From contig JACRLV010000030.1 of assembly GCA_016235145.1 (NCBI GenBank), positions 1 through 34,049 on the forward strand: DNA of 34,049 bases. Reading direction: 5' to 3'. Origin of the DNA: Planctomycetota bacterium. GTDB lineage: Bacteria > Planctomycetota > Phycisphaerae > UBA1845 > Fen-1342. Below the pieces are notes generated by a model, which worked only from the letters and a program-made list of their open reading frames with translations, did not search any database and was not told the DNA's origin. The first letter of the stretch is position 1, and the number at the start of each line of letters is the position of its first letter. Positions 18,404-25,740 of this stretch are shown here, piece by piece. A program made the translations under genes and the position numbers.

Positions 18404-18691
18404 CCCCGCGGACCCGCCGCTTCAGGCCGTCGGCGAGACGCCGGCGCCGCATCCGCACTGTTCGAATTGGCCATCCGCCACTTGCTATTCTCCATTCGCT
18501 ATTCGATATTCGGCGCTCCGCCGCCCGCGCCACCCCTCGGTCCCAAGCTCACAAAAAAACGCCGCCAAACCTGGAGAATCCGCCTCCGACGCCGGAAGTA
18601 AGTCGGCGGCGCTCGGAGTAGAGCCCCGCCAGTGAGCACGACCGGCGGTAATTCGCCGAACCAGGGTGATTCGGGAAGAAGGGAGAATCTC

Positions 18692-20315
18692 ATGCGTTCG
18701 AAGACCTCCAGAACAGAAACGTGGCGTCGTGCGGCGATCGCGTGCGTCGCAGCCGCTGCATCCATGTCCAGCGCGAATGCGGCCGTTTTCCACACGCAAC
18801 GTCTGCACAATCCGGCGAACACCGGCGGCCAGGGAGTCGAGATCGAACCCTATGGCGGCGGCTTCGTTTACCTGGCCAACCACACGTCGCCATACCTGTT
18901 GCCGCTGTCGCTCAATGAGCGGCCGACGCTCGTGTTCACGGACTCGGCGTTGACCGCAGCGGCCTCGTACACCTTCATGCGGCCGAACGAGACGACGCAG
19001 CTCCTCCCGACGCAGCTTTATCTGGATTCGCGCGACTTCGCGAAGACCGCGGACGGCGGCTTCATCATCTGCGGCAACTACGCCGAGGGAGACGCGGCCA
19101 ACGGCGGCGGCCTGCAATATGGCGCCTTCCTGCTCCGCGTCGACGGCCTCAGCCTTCAGCCGCTGTGGTTCCGGCAATATCCGGCAACCGATCCGAACGC
19201 ATACGTCTCCGACATCCAGTTCAACTCGGTCGTCGAAACGAGCATCCCGGGCGGCGGCGGTTTCGTCGTCGCCGGCCAGATCACCGACACGCTGCTCAAC
19301 GAAGCCCTGATCGCCGGCTTCGACAGCCTGGGAAATCCGCTGTGGACGCGGGAGCTGACGAGCTTTGACGGCGGCTTTGGCGTCGCGACCGAAGTGATCA
19401 ACTACGACGCGGAGTCCGTCGCGGTCACCGGCTACGCCGGCGGCCGGCCGCACGTGCATTGCCAGAACAATCTGGCGCACGCGGACGTGCTCGTGGCTCG
19501 GTTCCAGAACGACGGCACGCCGCTGTTCGTATCGCTCTACGGCCAGTCGATCGGCGTGGTCAACGAGACGGTCGCATCATTCGGCGGGATCGGGGCGTCG
19601 CGGACGCGGCCGAACGGCTCGCCGGGGTTCGTTCAACGACGACATGCTGGCGTTCCGCATCGACCCGAGCGGCGCAGTCGTCTGGGCGCATCGGTACGGA
19701 CTTCCCGGCGCGATCAGCGTCCGCGGCGTGCAGATCAAGCCGATCAGCGCGTTCCTGGCGATCGCCGCCGAGACGAATACACTGCTCAACGGCACGGTGT
19801 CCGAGAACGTCGCCTACTACCGCCTGATGGCAGGCGGCGGCTCGCTCGCGGCGCAGACCGAGGTCTTCGGCGGCGATCAGGTTGACTCGGTCGCCGGGAT
19901 CATCCCGCTTGGGCCGCCGTATCCGACCCGGGCGGTGATGGTGGGGACGAGCGAGAGCTTCGGGACGCCGTTCCCGAAGCCGTACCTGATCGACCGCCAG
20001 GTGTTCGCGCAGCGGCATTGCAACGACGCGATGGTTCCGTCGCTGATCCAGCCGGTGATTCTCCCGCAACACGAAGTGCTGATCACGACGCCGCTCTTCC
20101 CGATGCGGTCGCAGGAGCTGCTGCTGCTGGGCGAGGAGATTTACGATCAGACGATCTGCGGTTTGTCGGGCGGCGTGGACACAGGGGGATCGGTCACGGT
20201 CGAGCAGATCTTCCAGATCCCGAACCCGACGCCGAGCCCGGTCATCGACCCGGGCGCAATCCCGTCCGCAGACGCGCAAGTGGAGGACGAGCCTGTCGTT
20301 GCCGACAACCCGTAA
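18692..20315 (+). CDS. secreted hypothetical protein (frameshifted near 19626)
   Basis: Signal 'MRSKTSRTETWRRAAIACVAAAASMSSANAA'; C-half 'SFNDDMLAFRIDPSGAVVWAHRYGLPG...' continues in another frame to 20315; RBS 'agaagggag'. Confidence 0.65.
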
Positions 20316-20350
20316 GCGTGCCGTCGTCCAACGCGCAAACGAGCAAGACC

Positions 20351-20380
20351 GCGCCGCCGGGGGCATCTCCTCGGCGGCGC
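20351..20380. terminator. hairpin between convergent genes (possible bidirectional terminator)
   Basis: GCGCCGCCG (20351-20359)/CGGCGGCGC (20372-20380), followed by gtccattttctgg. Confidence 0.55.
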
Positions 20381-20425
20381 GTCCATTTTCTGGTTCACGA
20401 TTCGTGGTTTGGACAGACTTCGGTT

Positions 20426-21157
20426 TCAGCGCCGCCGACAGGCCGCGACGCCGAGCAGGCTGATCAGGATCAGCGAAGTGGGCTCGGGAACCAGGTACCA
20501 CAGGCCCCAATCGATGCCGCTGATCGCCGGTACGTCGAACGTCGCAAGGACGGTGCCGGGCGTCTGCGAGTTCGGCGGGGGCGGCGGCTCACTACGGAGG
20601 ACGAACACCGCGTCGGGAGGTTCTGTTCCCAAGTCCCCGGCGTACCAAGCCGCGCCGCTTGGTGCGCCAACGCGGGAGACATCGATGGAGATGCGGGCAA
20701 TGTACCCGTCGACCGAGGGGGAGGTGCTGGTCGCCGGCGGAACGGCGAAGTAGGCGACGTTTAGTTCGGTCAGGTTCACACCTTGCCACGGACCCGGGGG
20801 GTTATATGTACCGGCGACCGCAGCCGCACCGTTGTTGAAGCGAGCATCGTCGTCCCGGCCGCGGGGCCGGCTCAGGCTCGTGTAGAACTTGTCGGACGTT
20901 CCGGGGTTGATCAAGGGGGCGAAGCTGGAACTGTTGGGATCGTAGTTCAGCCGCGCTCCACGCAGCGCAATCACACGAATGCCGGTACCGGTCCAGACGT
21001 CGGTCTCGGCGATGTCGACGTACACATCCACAATCTTGAAGTTGTCCGGGATCGTGCCGCTGGTTTCGCTTGGGTCGAGAACATCTAGCGAAAACGTGCC
21101 TTGCGCGAACGCGGCAGAGCACGCCAGGAGCGCGAAAAAAACGGCGCGTTTGGTCAT
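20426..21157 (-). CDS. PEP-CTERM sorting-domain protein, paralog 1
   Basis: Signal 'MTKRAVFFALLACSAAFAQ'; tail 'VPEPTSLILISLLGVAACRRR'. Confidence 0.85.
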   Translation of the reverse strand: MTKRAVFFALLACSAAFAQGTFSLDVLDPSETSGTIPDNFKIVDVYVDIAETDVWTGTGIRVIALRGARLNYDPNSSSFAPLINPGTSDKFYTSLSRPRGRDDDARFNNGAAAVAGTYNPPGPWQGVNLTELNVAYFAVPPATSTSPSVDGYIARISIDVSRVGAPSGAAWYAGDLGTEPPDAVFVLRSEPPPPPNSQTPGTVLATFDVPAISGIDWGLWYLVPEPTSLILISLLGVAACRRR

Positions 21158-21167
21158 GGTTCACTCC

Positions 21168-21932
21168 TCATTTCGAGTGCGGCCTATCGAAATACCGCCA
21201 CCGAACCGCCAGACCGCCAAGCATCAGCAGGCTCAACGAAGTCGGTTCGGGAACGAGATACCAGAGGCTCCAGTCCATGCCGTTGGGTGCCGGTACGTCG
21301 TATGTCGCCAACGCCGTGCCATTGCCCCGCGGACGATCCGGGAACCGGCTTTGCACCACAAAGACGGCCCCGAGAGGTTCCGCGCCCAACACGCTGATGC
21401 CCCAGAAGGCGTCCTGTGGAGCGCCAACCGCGGAAACGTCGACGGAAATGCGCGCCACGTAGCCGTCAACCGAGGGCGATGTGCTACTCTCAGGCGGGAC
21501 GGCGAAGTACGCGACGTCCAGTTCGTGCGGATCCGTTAACGGAGGGGGAGGACGACCTGTATACCCGCCCGCAGCGACTGCGCCCGCACTGGTGAAGCGC
21601 GCGTCGGCGTCGCGTGGGCGAGGTTTGCTCAGGCTCGTCGTAAACCTGTTTTCGACGCCGGGGTCGAACAAGCCCGGCTGTGTGCCCGCGGTATTGGGAT
21701 CGGAGTCGAAGTAGACGAAGGTCGCGCCGTTGTATGTGATCGCCCGGATGCCGCCGGCGGTCCACACGTCCGTAGGGGCGATATCGACGTACACGTCCAC
21801 GATTTTCAAGTTGTCGGGAATCGTGAAGGTAGTTTCGATCGGGTCGAGCAGATCGACCGAGAGCGTGCCTTGTGCCGCCGCAACTGAGCACGTCACGAGG
21901 GTGAATAGGACGCCGACAGTGTTTTTCGTCAT
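21168..21932 (-). CDS. PEP-CTERM sorting-domain protein, paralog 2
   Basis: 'MTKNTVGVLFTLVTCSVAAAQGTLSVDLLDPIET...'; tail 'VPEPTSLSLLMLGGLAVRWRYFDRPHSK'. Confidence 0.85.
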   Translation of the reverse strand: MTKNTVGVLFTLVTCSVAAAQGTLSVDLLDPIETTFTIPDNLKIVDVYVDIAPTDVWTAGGIRAITYNGATFVYFDSDPNTAGTQPGLFDPGVENRFTTSLSKPRPRDADARFTSAGAVAAGGYTGRPPPPLTDPHELDVAYFAVPPESSTSPSVDGYVARISVDVSAVGAPQDAFWGISVLGAEPLGAVFVVQSRFPDRPRGNGTALATYDVPAPNGMDWSLWYLVPEPTSLSLLMLGGLAVRWRYFDRPHSK

Positions 21933-22702
21933 TGCTTGCGCCTTAGATGTGAAAGCCGGCCGCCGAAACGCCGGCCCCCAGCCGTGAGCGCACCGAGGAC
22001 CAGCAGGATCAGCGAAGTGGGTTCGGGAACGAGGTACCACAGGCCCCAATCGATTCCGCTGATCGCCGGCACGTCGAACGTCGCCAGGACCGTGCCGCGG
22101 TTCGATTGAAACGGGAATCGGCTTTGCAGAACAAAGACTGCTCCCGTGGGTTCGGCGCCCAGCACACTCGCGCCCCAAGACGCATCGTCCGGCGCGCCAA
22201 CAGCAGAAATGTCCACCGAAATGCGAGCCACGTATCCATCAACCGAGGGCGACGTGCTGCTGGGAGGCGGGTTAGTGAAGTAGGCGACGTTCAGTTCGTT
22301 TGGTACCGTGACCGCAGCCGCACCGCCGGTGTACCCGCCAGCAACCCCCACACCTCCGTTCGTGAAACGCGCGTTACCGTCTCGGGCGCGAGGCCGGCTC
22401 AGACTCGTGAAGAACTTGTTCTCCAAGCCGGGGTTAACCAGACCCGGTTGCGTACCGGCCCTGTTTGGGTCGGCGTCGAAGTAGACCAGCGCTCCGCCGT
22501 TCTGAGCAACCGCTCGAATGCCGCCCGCTGTCCACACGTCGGTCACCGCAATATCCACATACACGTCCACGATTTTGAAGTTGTCCGGAATCGTGCCGCT
22601 GGTTTCGCTTGGGTCCAGCAGATCGACCGAGAGCGTGCCTTGTGCCGCCGCAACTGAGCACGCCACGAGGGCGAAAAAAGCGGCGGCGATGCGTTTGGTC
22701 AT
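21929..22702 (-). CDS. PEP-CTERM sorting-domain protein, paralog 3
   Basis: 'MTKRIAAAFFALVACSVAAAQGTLSVDLLDPSETSG...'; tail 'VPEPTSLILLVLGALTAGGRRFGG...RRKQ'; ATGA overlap with paralog 2. Confidence 0.85.
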   Translation of the reverse strand: MTKRIAAAFFALVACSVAAAQGTLSVDLLDPSETSGTIPDNFKIVDVYVDIAVTDVWTAGGIRAVAQNGGALVYFDADPNRAGTQPGLVNPGLENKFFTSLSRPRARDGNARFTNGGVGVAGGYTGGAAAVTVPNELNVAYFTNPPPSSTSPSVDGYVARISVDISAVGAPDDASWGASVLGAEPTGAVFVLQSRFPFQSNRGTVLATFDVPAISGIDWGLWYLVPEPTSLILLVLGALTAGGRRFGGRLSHLRRKQ

Positions 22703-22712
22703 GGTTTGGTCC

Positions 22713-23480
22713 TCATTTCGAGCGCGGCCTATCGAGATACCGCCAACGAACTGCCAAACCGCCAAGCGTCAGCAGGATCAGCGAGGTCGGCTCGGGAACG
22801 ACGTACCACATGCCCCAGTTGATGCCGCTGATTTGCGGTACGTCCCAGGTCGCGACAATCGTGCCCGGCGTCTGCGAGCCCGGCGGCGGAGGCGGCTCGC
22901 TACGGAGCACAAACACCGCTCCGGCGGGTTCCGTGCCCAACAGGCCCGCCCCCCAAACCGCGCCATCCCCCGCGCCAACGGCGGAGATATCGACCGAAAT
23001 GCGCGCCACACAGCCGTCAAACGAGGGCGACGTGCTGCTCTCGGGCGGGCTTGCGAAGTAGGCGACGTTCAATGCACCTGGATAAGTCCATGCATTCGGG
23101 CCGCCGTAAACCGGACCGGCAACCGCAACCCCACCGTTCGTGAACCTGGCGTCGGCGTCGCGCGGGCGCGGCCTGCTCAGGCTCGTAGTGAATTTGTCTT
23201 CGACGCCGGGGTTGACCAGCCCTGGCTGCGTGCCGTACGTATTGGGATCGGCGTCGAAATAGACGAAGGTTGCGCCATTATGCGTGAACGCGACGATGCC
23301 GCACGCGGCCCACACATCCGTCACGGCGATATCGACGTACACGTCCACGATTTTGAAGTTGTCCGGGATCGTGCCGCTGGTTTCGCTGGGGTCGAGCAGA
23401 TCGACCGAGAGCGTGCCTTGAGCCGTCGCGACTGAGCACGCCACGAGGGCAAGAAAGGAGGCGGCGATGCGTTTGGTCAT
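22713..23480 (-). CDS. PEP-CTERM sorting-domain protein, paralog 4
   Basis: 'MTKRIAASFLALVACSVATAQGTLSVDLLDPSETSG...'; tail 'VPEPTSLILLTLGGLAVRWRYLDRPRSK'. Confidence 0.85.
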   Translation of the reverse strand: MTKRIAASFLALVACSVATAQGTLSVDLLDPSETSGTIPDNFKIVDVYVDIAVTDVWAACGIVAFTHNGATFVYFDADPNTYGTQPGLVNPGVEDKFTTSLSRPRPRDADARFTNGGVAVAGPVYGGPNAWTYPGALNVAYFASPPESSTSPSFDGCVARISVDISAVGAGDGAVWGAGLLGTEPAGAVFVLRSEPPPPPGSQTPGTIVATWDVPQISGINWGMWYVVPEPTSLILLTLGGLAVRWRYLDRPRSK

Positions 23481-23490
23481 GGTTTGGTCC

Positions 23491-24255
23491 TCATCTCGAG
23501 CGCGGCCTATCGAGATACCGCCAACGAACTGCCAAACCGCCAAGCGTCAGCAGGATCAGCGAGGTCGGCTCGGGAACGACGTACCACATGCCCCAGTTGA
23601 TGCCGCTGATTTGCGGTACGTCCCATGTCGTCAGCGCGGTGCCTGGAGCGCCGGTGCCTCCCGGCAATTGGCTGCGCAGGACATACACAGCTCCCTGCGG
23701 CCCGTCGCCAACCAAACCGGCACCCCAGATTGCACCCTGCGGCGCGCCGACGCCGGCGACGTCAACGGCGACGCGAGCGACATAGCCGTCAACCGAAGGC
23801 GAGGCGCCGTTCTCAGGTGGGCTTGCAAAATGAACCACGTTGAACTCGTTTGCCGTCGTAATCGGCACCGGCAAGTCTGGGTAGTATCCCGTCGCGGCGG
23901 CGGCGCCGGCGTTGTGGAATCGATCTTCGCCATCGCGCGGGCGCGGCTTGCTCAGGCTGGTTACGAACTTATTTTCGACGCCGGGGTTGAATAAGCCGGG
24001 CCGATAGACTCCCTCATTGGGATCGACATCGAAGTAAACAAATGCCGCGCCGTTTGACGTGATCGCGCGAATGCCGCCCGCGGTCCACACATCGGTCTCG
24101 ACGATGTCGACGTGTACGTCCACGATCTTGTAGTTGGCCGGGATCGTGCCGCTGGTTTCGCTGGGGTCGAGCAGATCGACCGCGAGCGTGCCCTGGGCCA
24201 AAGCCGCCGCATTTGTGGCGACGGCGAGCGCGACCGTGAGAAACTGAGATTTCAC
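23491..24255 (-). CDS. PEP-CTERM sorting-domain protein, paralog 5
   Basis: GTG start after RBS GAGGACC; 'VKSQFLTVALAVATNAAALAQGTLAVDLLDPSETSG...'; tail 'VPEPTSLILLTLGGLAVRWRYLDRPRSR'. Confidence 0.85.
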   Translation of the reverse strand: MKSQFLTVALAVATNAAALAQGTLAVDLLDPSETSGTIPANYKIVDVHVDIVETDVWTAGGIRAITSNGAAFVYFDVDPNEGVYRPGLFNPGVENKFVTSLSKPRPRDGEDRFHNAGAAAATGYYPDLPVPITTANEFNVVHFASPPENGASPSVDGYVARVAVDVAGVGAPQGAIWGAGLVGDGPQGAVYVLRSQLPGGTGAPGTALTTWDVPQISGINWGMWYVVPEPTSLILLTLGGLAVRWRYLDRPRSR

Positions 24256-24517: not shown

Positions 24518-25516
24518 TCAGCCGCCGCAGACTTCGCCGAAGCGCATGAGAAGGAGCGCGAGATCTTCCAGATCGACGTTCTGGTCGCAATCCAGATCGC
24601 CGTCGCCATAACCCATCACGCCGGGTTCCGTGAAATTGGCGAGCAAATACGCCAGATCCTGGAGGTTGATGATTCCGTTTCCATCCAGGTCGCCGAAGCA
24701 GGGAGCGTCGGCGGCGCGGGTGATCTCCAGATTGTCGATCGCGAGGATGTTGCCGCTGGTGTGATCGCCGGGGAAGCCCCCGCCGCCGAAGATCCGGAAC
24801 GCGCTCGCCGTCCCGTCGGGATCAGCGCCGCCGGCCAGGTAGTATCCCTCCAACGACTGCGGCGTGAACGTGTGGGCCGGCGCGGCGTCCGCGAGGTCGC
24901 GTATTCGCAGAGAGGTCAGCGCGTTCGTGCTCGCCAGCTCCAGCCTGGCGGACAGGCGAAACCAGTGGTTCGCGGGCAGCCGCCGAAACGCCGAGTCCGC
25001 CACGGGCAGGCCGGACAGATAGGGCACATTTCCATCCGCGTCGTAGCCGAGCACTCGAACGGTGAACGTCTTCGCGCTGTGCACGTCGTCCCAGTTGAAC
25101 AGAATGCCGATCGTTCCGGGGGCCGCCCACGGCTGAAGCGTGAACGAGCCCGCGTAGTTTTGCGTGGGAAGCGCGCCGTCATAGGCCACGTTGAAATCGA
25201 ATTCCATCAGCCAGCAATCGGCGTCGAGTTGAACGTTGTGCTGGGCACGGCTGAACGCACCCGAAATCCGCCGGGCGGCCGCGAACTGGGCGCCGCCTTC
25301 CGGATTTCCGATAATCCCCAGAACATTGTCCGCGTACGTGAAGCACGCGCCATCGGCGTCGTCAATCGCCGGCACGTAGAAACCATCCTGGCCGGCGAGT
25401 GGAACGCCGGATGCCGCGCCGCTGAACGCGGGCGTCTCAAAATCGGTCGAATACTGGGCGAGTGAAGCACCGGGCAGCAGCGCTGGTGCTGCGACCCAAA
25501 TAGCCGCATACAGCAT
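24518..25516 (-). CDS. secreted protein with C-terminal dockerin-like repeats
   Basis: Signal 'MLYAAIWVAAPALLPGASLAQ'; tail 'GDLDGNGIINLQDLAYLLANF...GDGDLDCDQNVDLEDLALLLMRFG' (two Ca-binding-type repeats). The start could also be 25537. Confidence 0.75.
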   Translation of the reverse strand: MLYAAIWVAAPALLPGASLAQYSTDFETPAFSGAASGVPLAGQDGFYVPAIDDADGACFTYADNVLGIIGNPEGGAQFAAARRISGAFSRAQHNVQLDADCWLMEFDFNVAYDGALPTQNYAGSFTLQPWAAPGTIGILFNWDDVHSAKTFTVRVLGYDADGNVPYLSGLPVADSAFRRLPANHWFRLSARLELASTNALTSLRIRDLADAAPAHTFTPQSLEGYYLAGGADPDGTASAFRIFGGGGFPGDHTSGNILAIDNLEITRAADAPCFGDLDGNGIINLQDLAYLLANFTEPGVMGYGDGDLDCDQNVDLEDLALLLMRFGEVCGG

Positions 25517-25740
25517 CTTTGCAGCATGAGTGCGCAATGATCAACCCCCCGGAATCGGCGATCCGGCGCAGCTCGCCAGAGAGCGCGCCGCCCCCTCTGA
25601 TTATCCAATTCCACCAGCCGCTGAAAGTCAAACGCGACGCCCGATCGAATTAGCGGCGAAAGGACTGACACCGCCTCCAGGCGCCGCGCGATGGACCGTA
25701 GGGATGCGCTGACCGTCTCCCCGGCGATTTCGGCCACATT

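Follow-up and report, generated by a model that had tools for sequence, protein, structure and literature searches.

Why would a single bacterium encode five adjacent variants of one exported protein? The locus that raises this question lies within a window of 34,049 nucleotides (the whole stretch of DNA that was analysed, contig JACRLV010000030.1) from a Planctomycetota MAG of 4.6 Mb in 392 contigs, 82% complete. We consider it probable that the five genes, g1 to g5, are an operon of paralogous exosortase substrates made by local tandem duplication. Their positions are as follows.

23491..24255, minus strand: g1, PEP-CTERM paralog 1, GTG start, 254 aa
22713..23480, minus strand: g2, PEP-CTERM paralog 2, 255 aa
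21929..22702, minus strand: g3, PEP-CTERM paralog 3, 257 aa
21168..21932, minus strand: g4, PEP-CTERM paralog 4, 254 aa, ATGA overlap with g3
20426..21157, minus strand: g5, PEP-CTERM paralog 5, the last gene of the array, 243 aa

All five open reading frames are complete (243-257 aa, no internal stops, GC3 of 0.70-0.78), with start-to-start spacings from g1 to g5 of 775, 778, 770 and 775 bp. Successive genes lie 10 bp apart, except g3 and g4, which overlap by 4 bp (ATGA). These coordinates agree with the preliminary description of five adjacent minus-strand genes joined by 10-bp gaps or an ATGA overlap, and the layout and junctions sustain its reading of one operon-like array. Because consensus scans upstream of g1 found no sigma-70-like promoter, and no sigma-54-like site either, it is the spacing that defines the putative transcription unit, which suggests that the five genes would be co-transcribed and translated together as one operon. 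Past the end of the array lies a candidate terminator.

20350..20381, no strand assigned: G+C-rich hairpin of 14 pairs, 45 nt past the g5 stop, between convergent genes

We infer that this hairpin is likely to be a terminator shared by the array and the convergent gene; its T-run scores on the plus strand only. The reading frame of the convergent gene itself (18602-20315, plus strand) seems to shift near 19600-19890, between the ORFs 18632-19885 and 19644-20315, which points to a frameshift or else to a sequencing error.

Each of the five proteins carries the same parts in the same order: a leader, a conserved N-domain, a variable middle and a VPEPTSL motif followed by a hydrophobic stretch and an Arg-rich end. 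By inspection, the hydrophobic N-terminal leaders end in A-x-A-Q or A-Q (A-Q-G), so that all five were judged to have the Sec signal peptide expected of exosortase substrates. The PEP motif, hydrophobic stretch and basic end together score above the TIGR02595 cut-off in five of five (17.2-22.6 bits against 16), and three of the five also exceed the stricter cut-off of Pfam PF07589. The signal peptide, common N-domain and VPEPTSL-TM-Arg tail that had been read from the letters are thus present throughout the array. The mature proteins are acidic and Cys-poor, like those of the PEP-CTERM cohort described earlier (PMC1569441).

The claim that these proteins are sorted by an exosortase would have failed had the genome lacked one, but a search returned two exosortase loci. 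Both match PF09721 (E 2.4e-56 and 5.2e-51) and clear the TIGR02602 cut-off of 105.55 bits with 150.6 and 134.3 bits, while reaching none of the cut-offs set for named subtypes, and in both the catalytic Cys, Arg and His motifs can be read (EGCSG / NVLRL / FHDFAG and DACSG / NFIRV / YHTALG). The first stands next to a gene of the EpsI family or the second does, and its counterpart on C215 is adjacent to an SLBB/Poly_export polysaccharide-export gene with a hexapeptide transferase nearby. The genome thus holds both the exosortase and the exopolysaccharide genes of a PEP-CTERM system, and since both exosortases have intact motifs and each stands beside EpsI-like or polysaccharide-export genes, the sorting assignment is sound. 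It also appears to be general in the lineage, because PEP-CTERM tails occur in all 27 of the taxonomic family's genomes that were searched and an exosortase in 26 of the 27. On this basis each array protein would leave the cytoplasm through Sec, stay anchored in the inner membrane by its hydrophobic tail and be cut by an exosortase at the VPEP site. Together with exopolysaccharide, it would then be set free or attached, as a protein of the extracellular matrix or of the surface.

The passenger domain gave no match in Pfam, NCBIfam or PDB outside the tail, a PDB profile search with the array family found nothing, and AlphaFold run on six sequences gave an unusable model (mean pLDDT 33). As the passenger has neither a family nor a fold match and the model is unusable, it is the sorting tail that points to a role in the matrix or at the surface, which we regard as probable. 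The domain is an uncharacterised, unnamed family without a match in family databases.

Alignment of the five genes did not uphold the impression that they are near-identical. Pairwise identity is 56-72% at the amino acid level and 62-74% at the nucleotide level, with dS of about 0.65-1.4 and dN/dS of 0.23-0.35; homology is far beyond chance all the same, the other array copies matching g3 with E-values of 1e-90 to 1e-110. The most conserved parts are the N-domain and the C-terminal region, and the middle is more variable between these conserved ends, as the diverged central regions of the preliminary description had it. From this identity and these substitution rates, g1 to g5 are best described as old duplicates under purifying selection. 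That the array is instead selectively neutral, a snapshot of gain and loss in which five copies bring no benefit, is unlikely: purifying selection acts in all pairs over dS 0.65-1.4 and there is no pseudogene among the five, although the array was found in none of the kin searched (below), as rapid turnover would predict, the family is patchy, and the host genome has another tandem array, whose passengers are unrelated.

The preliminary description also called the array mosaic, and this proved correct chiefly at the 3' end, where two copies of a homogenised tract lie (boundaries approximate to a few bases).

23462..23626, minus strand: homogenised tract, copy 1, comprising the g1 3' end, the 10-bp junction and the g2 start
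22684..22848, minus strand: homogenised tract, copy 2, comprising the g2 3' end, the 10-bp junction and the g3 start

Between g1 and g2, 130 nt are identical at the 3' ends, followed by one mismatch and then by 34 identical nt into the next gene. A run of this length was reached in 0 of 2000 permutations of polymorphic sites, and a weaker run near the leader was found for g3/g4 (permutation p 0.0005); with silent sites only, no pair was significant (lowest p 0.14). Topology tests on three large segments gave no clear conflict, which appeared only when the alignment was divided more finely, at codon 211. In codons 178-211, g2+g5 is the preferred grouping and g1+g2|g4|g3+g5 is rejected (AU 0.0008); in codons 211-261 it is g1+g2|g4|g3+g5 that is preferred and g2+g5|g1|g3+g4 that is rejected (AU 0.002). 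These p-values are somewhat optimistic because the breakpoint was picked after viewing the alignment. The identical tract and the mutually rejected segment trees support recombination or gene conversion between copies as the probable source of the pattern, chiefly at the 3' end. That the five genes share one origin to the exclusion of the copy on C84 was recovered in no more than 57% of bootstraps.

The homogenised tract also bears on whether the array is real. An exact repeat of 130 nt plus 34 nt could mislead short-read assembly in a MAG of 392 contigs, so that a single gene might have been multiplied artificially. We put the probability of such an artefact close to nil, because the copies differ at 26-38% of nucleotides, and the array is an internal part of one 34-kb contig. 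The objection that had been foreseen to the array does not apply.

A system of phase or antigenic variation, in which the five copies would serve as a repertoire, either expressed singly or recombined to vary a surface protein, would likewise show conserved ends around a more variable middle, with recombination between neighbouring copies. Several features make this highly improbable. Every copy has its start, leader and tail, leaving no silent cassettes; the 10-bp and overlapping junctions leave no space for separate promoters; pairwise dN/dS is well below 1; the homogenised tract lies in the conserved part, at the C-terminus and tail, and not in the variable middle; and the tandem-repeat output shows, at the gene starts, no simple repeat of the kind that slipped-strand switching would use. 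With five complete copies packed closely together, the sequence lends no support to switching or to one-at-a-time expression. The copy number is most likely a product of birth-and-death evolution by unequal crossing-over and conversion, not of a switching system: tandem duplication and gene conversion would amplify an operon of secreted exosortase substrates, whose extra copies may raise dosage and let the exposed middle diverge.

A search of the host genome with g3 returned 15 matches, namely the array five, the C84 copy (63% identical) and nine more distant ones. Elsewhere the family is rare. Any match to it was found in 5 of 60 kin genomes, and the array itself in none of the 60. A profile search of 298 genomes of the class added few convincing relatives and returned mostly PEP-CTERM tail matches (nine candidates were scored per genome, and absence there is not proof). 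Back-translated peptide scans of genomes found one relative only, in the Planctomycetota MAG contig JAATGM010000022.1, and viral contigs held no relatives of the family. Judged from these searches, the array is specific to the host genome among those searched.

The same genome contains a second tandem PEP-CTERM array of four adjacent paralogs on contig C12 (G000:C12, L078 2542-6646): two members have PEP-CTERM tails, one ORF runs into Ns, and the last has a dockerin-type tail. Like g1 to g5, these are same-strand adjacent paralogs with leaders and PEP-CTERM tails, but their passengers belong to an unrelated family, are 30-54% identical and include the dockerin-tailed member. PEP-CTERM genes also occur as neighbours in other genomes of the taxonomic family. 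In one (L075, G003:C59), two nearby PEP-CTERM genes at 269-940 and 1589-2335 have near-identical leaders and tails and different passengers, as if the leader and tail ends had been reused as a cassette.

Dockerin-type tails recur around the array family. The product of the gene upstream of the array (24518-25537, minus strand, 262 bp from g1) is an exported protein that ends in a dockerin-like EF-hand tail; the best PDB sequence matches of this protein are dockerins, though weak (E 0.016-0.03). One relative of the array family (L022, G000:C204:9957-10586) ends in a dockerin-like repeat instead of a PEP-CTERM tail. The genome has 108 Dockerin_1 matches at E<=0.1, about 60 of them over the cut-off, against no match to Cohesin (PF00963), which leaves the dockerins as orphans. 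On G000:C339 (L077), a same-strand run of dockerin-tailed genes lies within 10 kb, with mostly unrelated passengers and tails 56-76% identical.

This imbalance, together with the dockerin-like-tailed protein encoded directly upstream, could mean that the array displays cohesin-like docking sites for the many dockerin-tailed proteins. Such a receptor is extremely improbable, as the family has no Pfam Cohesin match and no other sequence or structure match to cohesin, the PDB profile search and the fold model yielded nothing usable in its favour, and the dockerin-like tail of L022 itself fits an exchange of tails better than a receptor and its ligand. A broader proposal is that, in this lineage, the same exported passenger families can carry either PEP-CTERM or dockerin-type tails as exchangeable modules for surface targeting. 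The array domain would then serve such a system as a so far uncharacterised domain for adhesion or docking, although the genome has no recognisable cohesin; we hold this to be improbable. The few relatives with a dockerin-type tail in place of PEP-CTERM are a modest curiosity, and the exchange could be a handle on the role of orphan dockerins.

Five tandem variants are thus less odd than was first implied. The adjacency stands, but a second tandem array and ten scattered paralogs accompany it in the genome, and paralogous, lineage-specific expansion of PEP-CTERM proteins was described by Haft et al. 2006 (PMC1569441). The array is a clear instance of such duplication and an ordinary one. It illustrates cleanly how Planctomycetota exosortase substrates undergo tandem amplification accompanied by gene conversion, and marks out an unnamed passenger family, with fifteen matches in one genome and rare elsewhere; it does not alter understanding of PEP-CTERM sorting.

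Among characterised proteins, the Aquincola PEP-CTERM protein PepA promotes floc formation and polymer binding (PMC9850573). Like the array proteins it is an exported PEP-CTERM protein of similar size, and it provides a precedent for a matrix role. The resemblance is confined to the tail: the PepA model NF033554 gave no full-length match over 80 bits, its matches covering the tail only at 10-16 bits against that cut-off (10.4-10.6 bits in two array members), and the passengers are unrelated. The array also resembles the PEP-CTERM/exosortase system of Haft et al. 2006 (TIGR02595 / PF07589 with TIGR02602 / PF09721; PMC1569441). That system shares with ours the signal peptide, the PEP motif, TM segment and basic end, and a genome that holds an exosortase with EpsI and export genes; its PEP-CTERM cohort likewise consists of Cys-poor passengers without Pfam matches that have undergone paralog expansion. 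The difference lies in arrangement: the available part of that report describes paralog clades and no such arrays, whereas here five paralogs are strictly tandem and operon-like.
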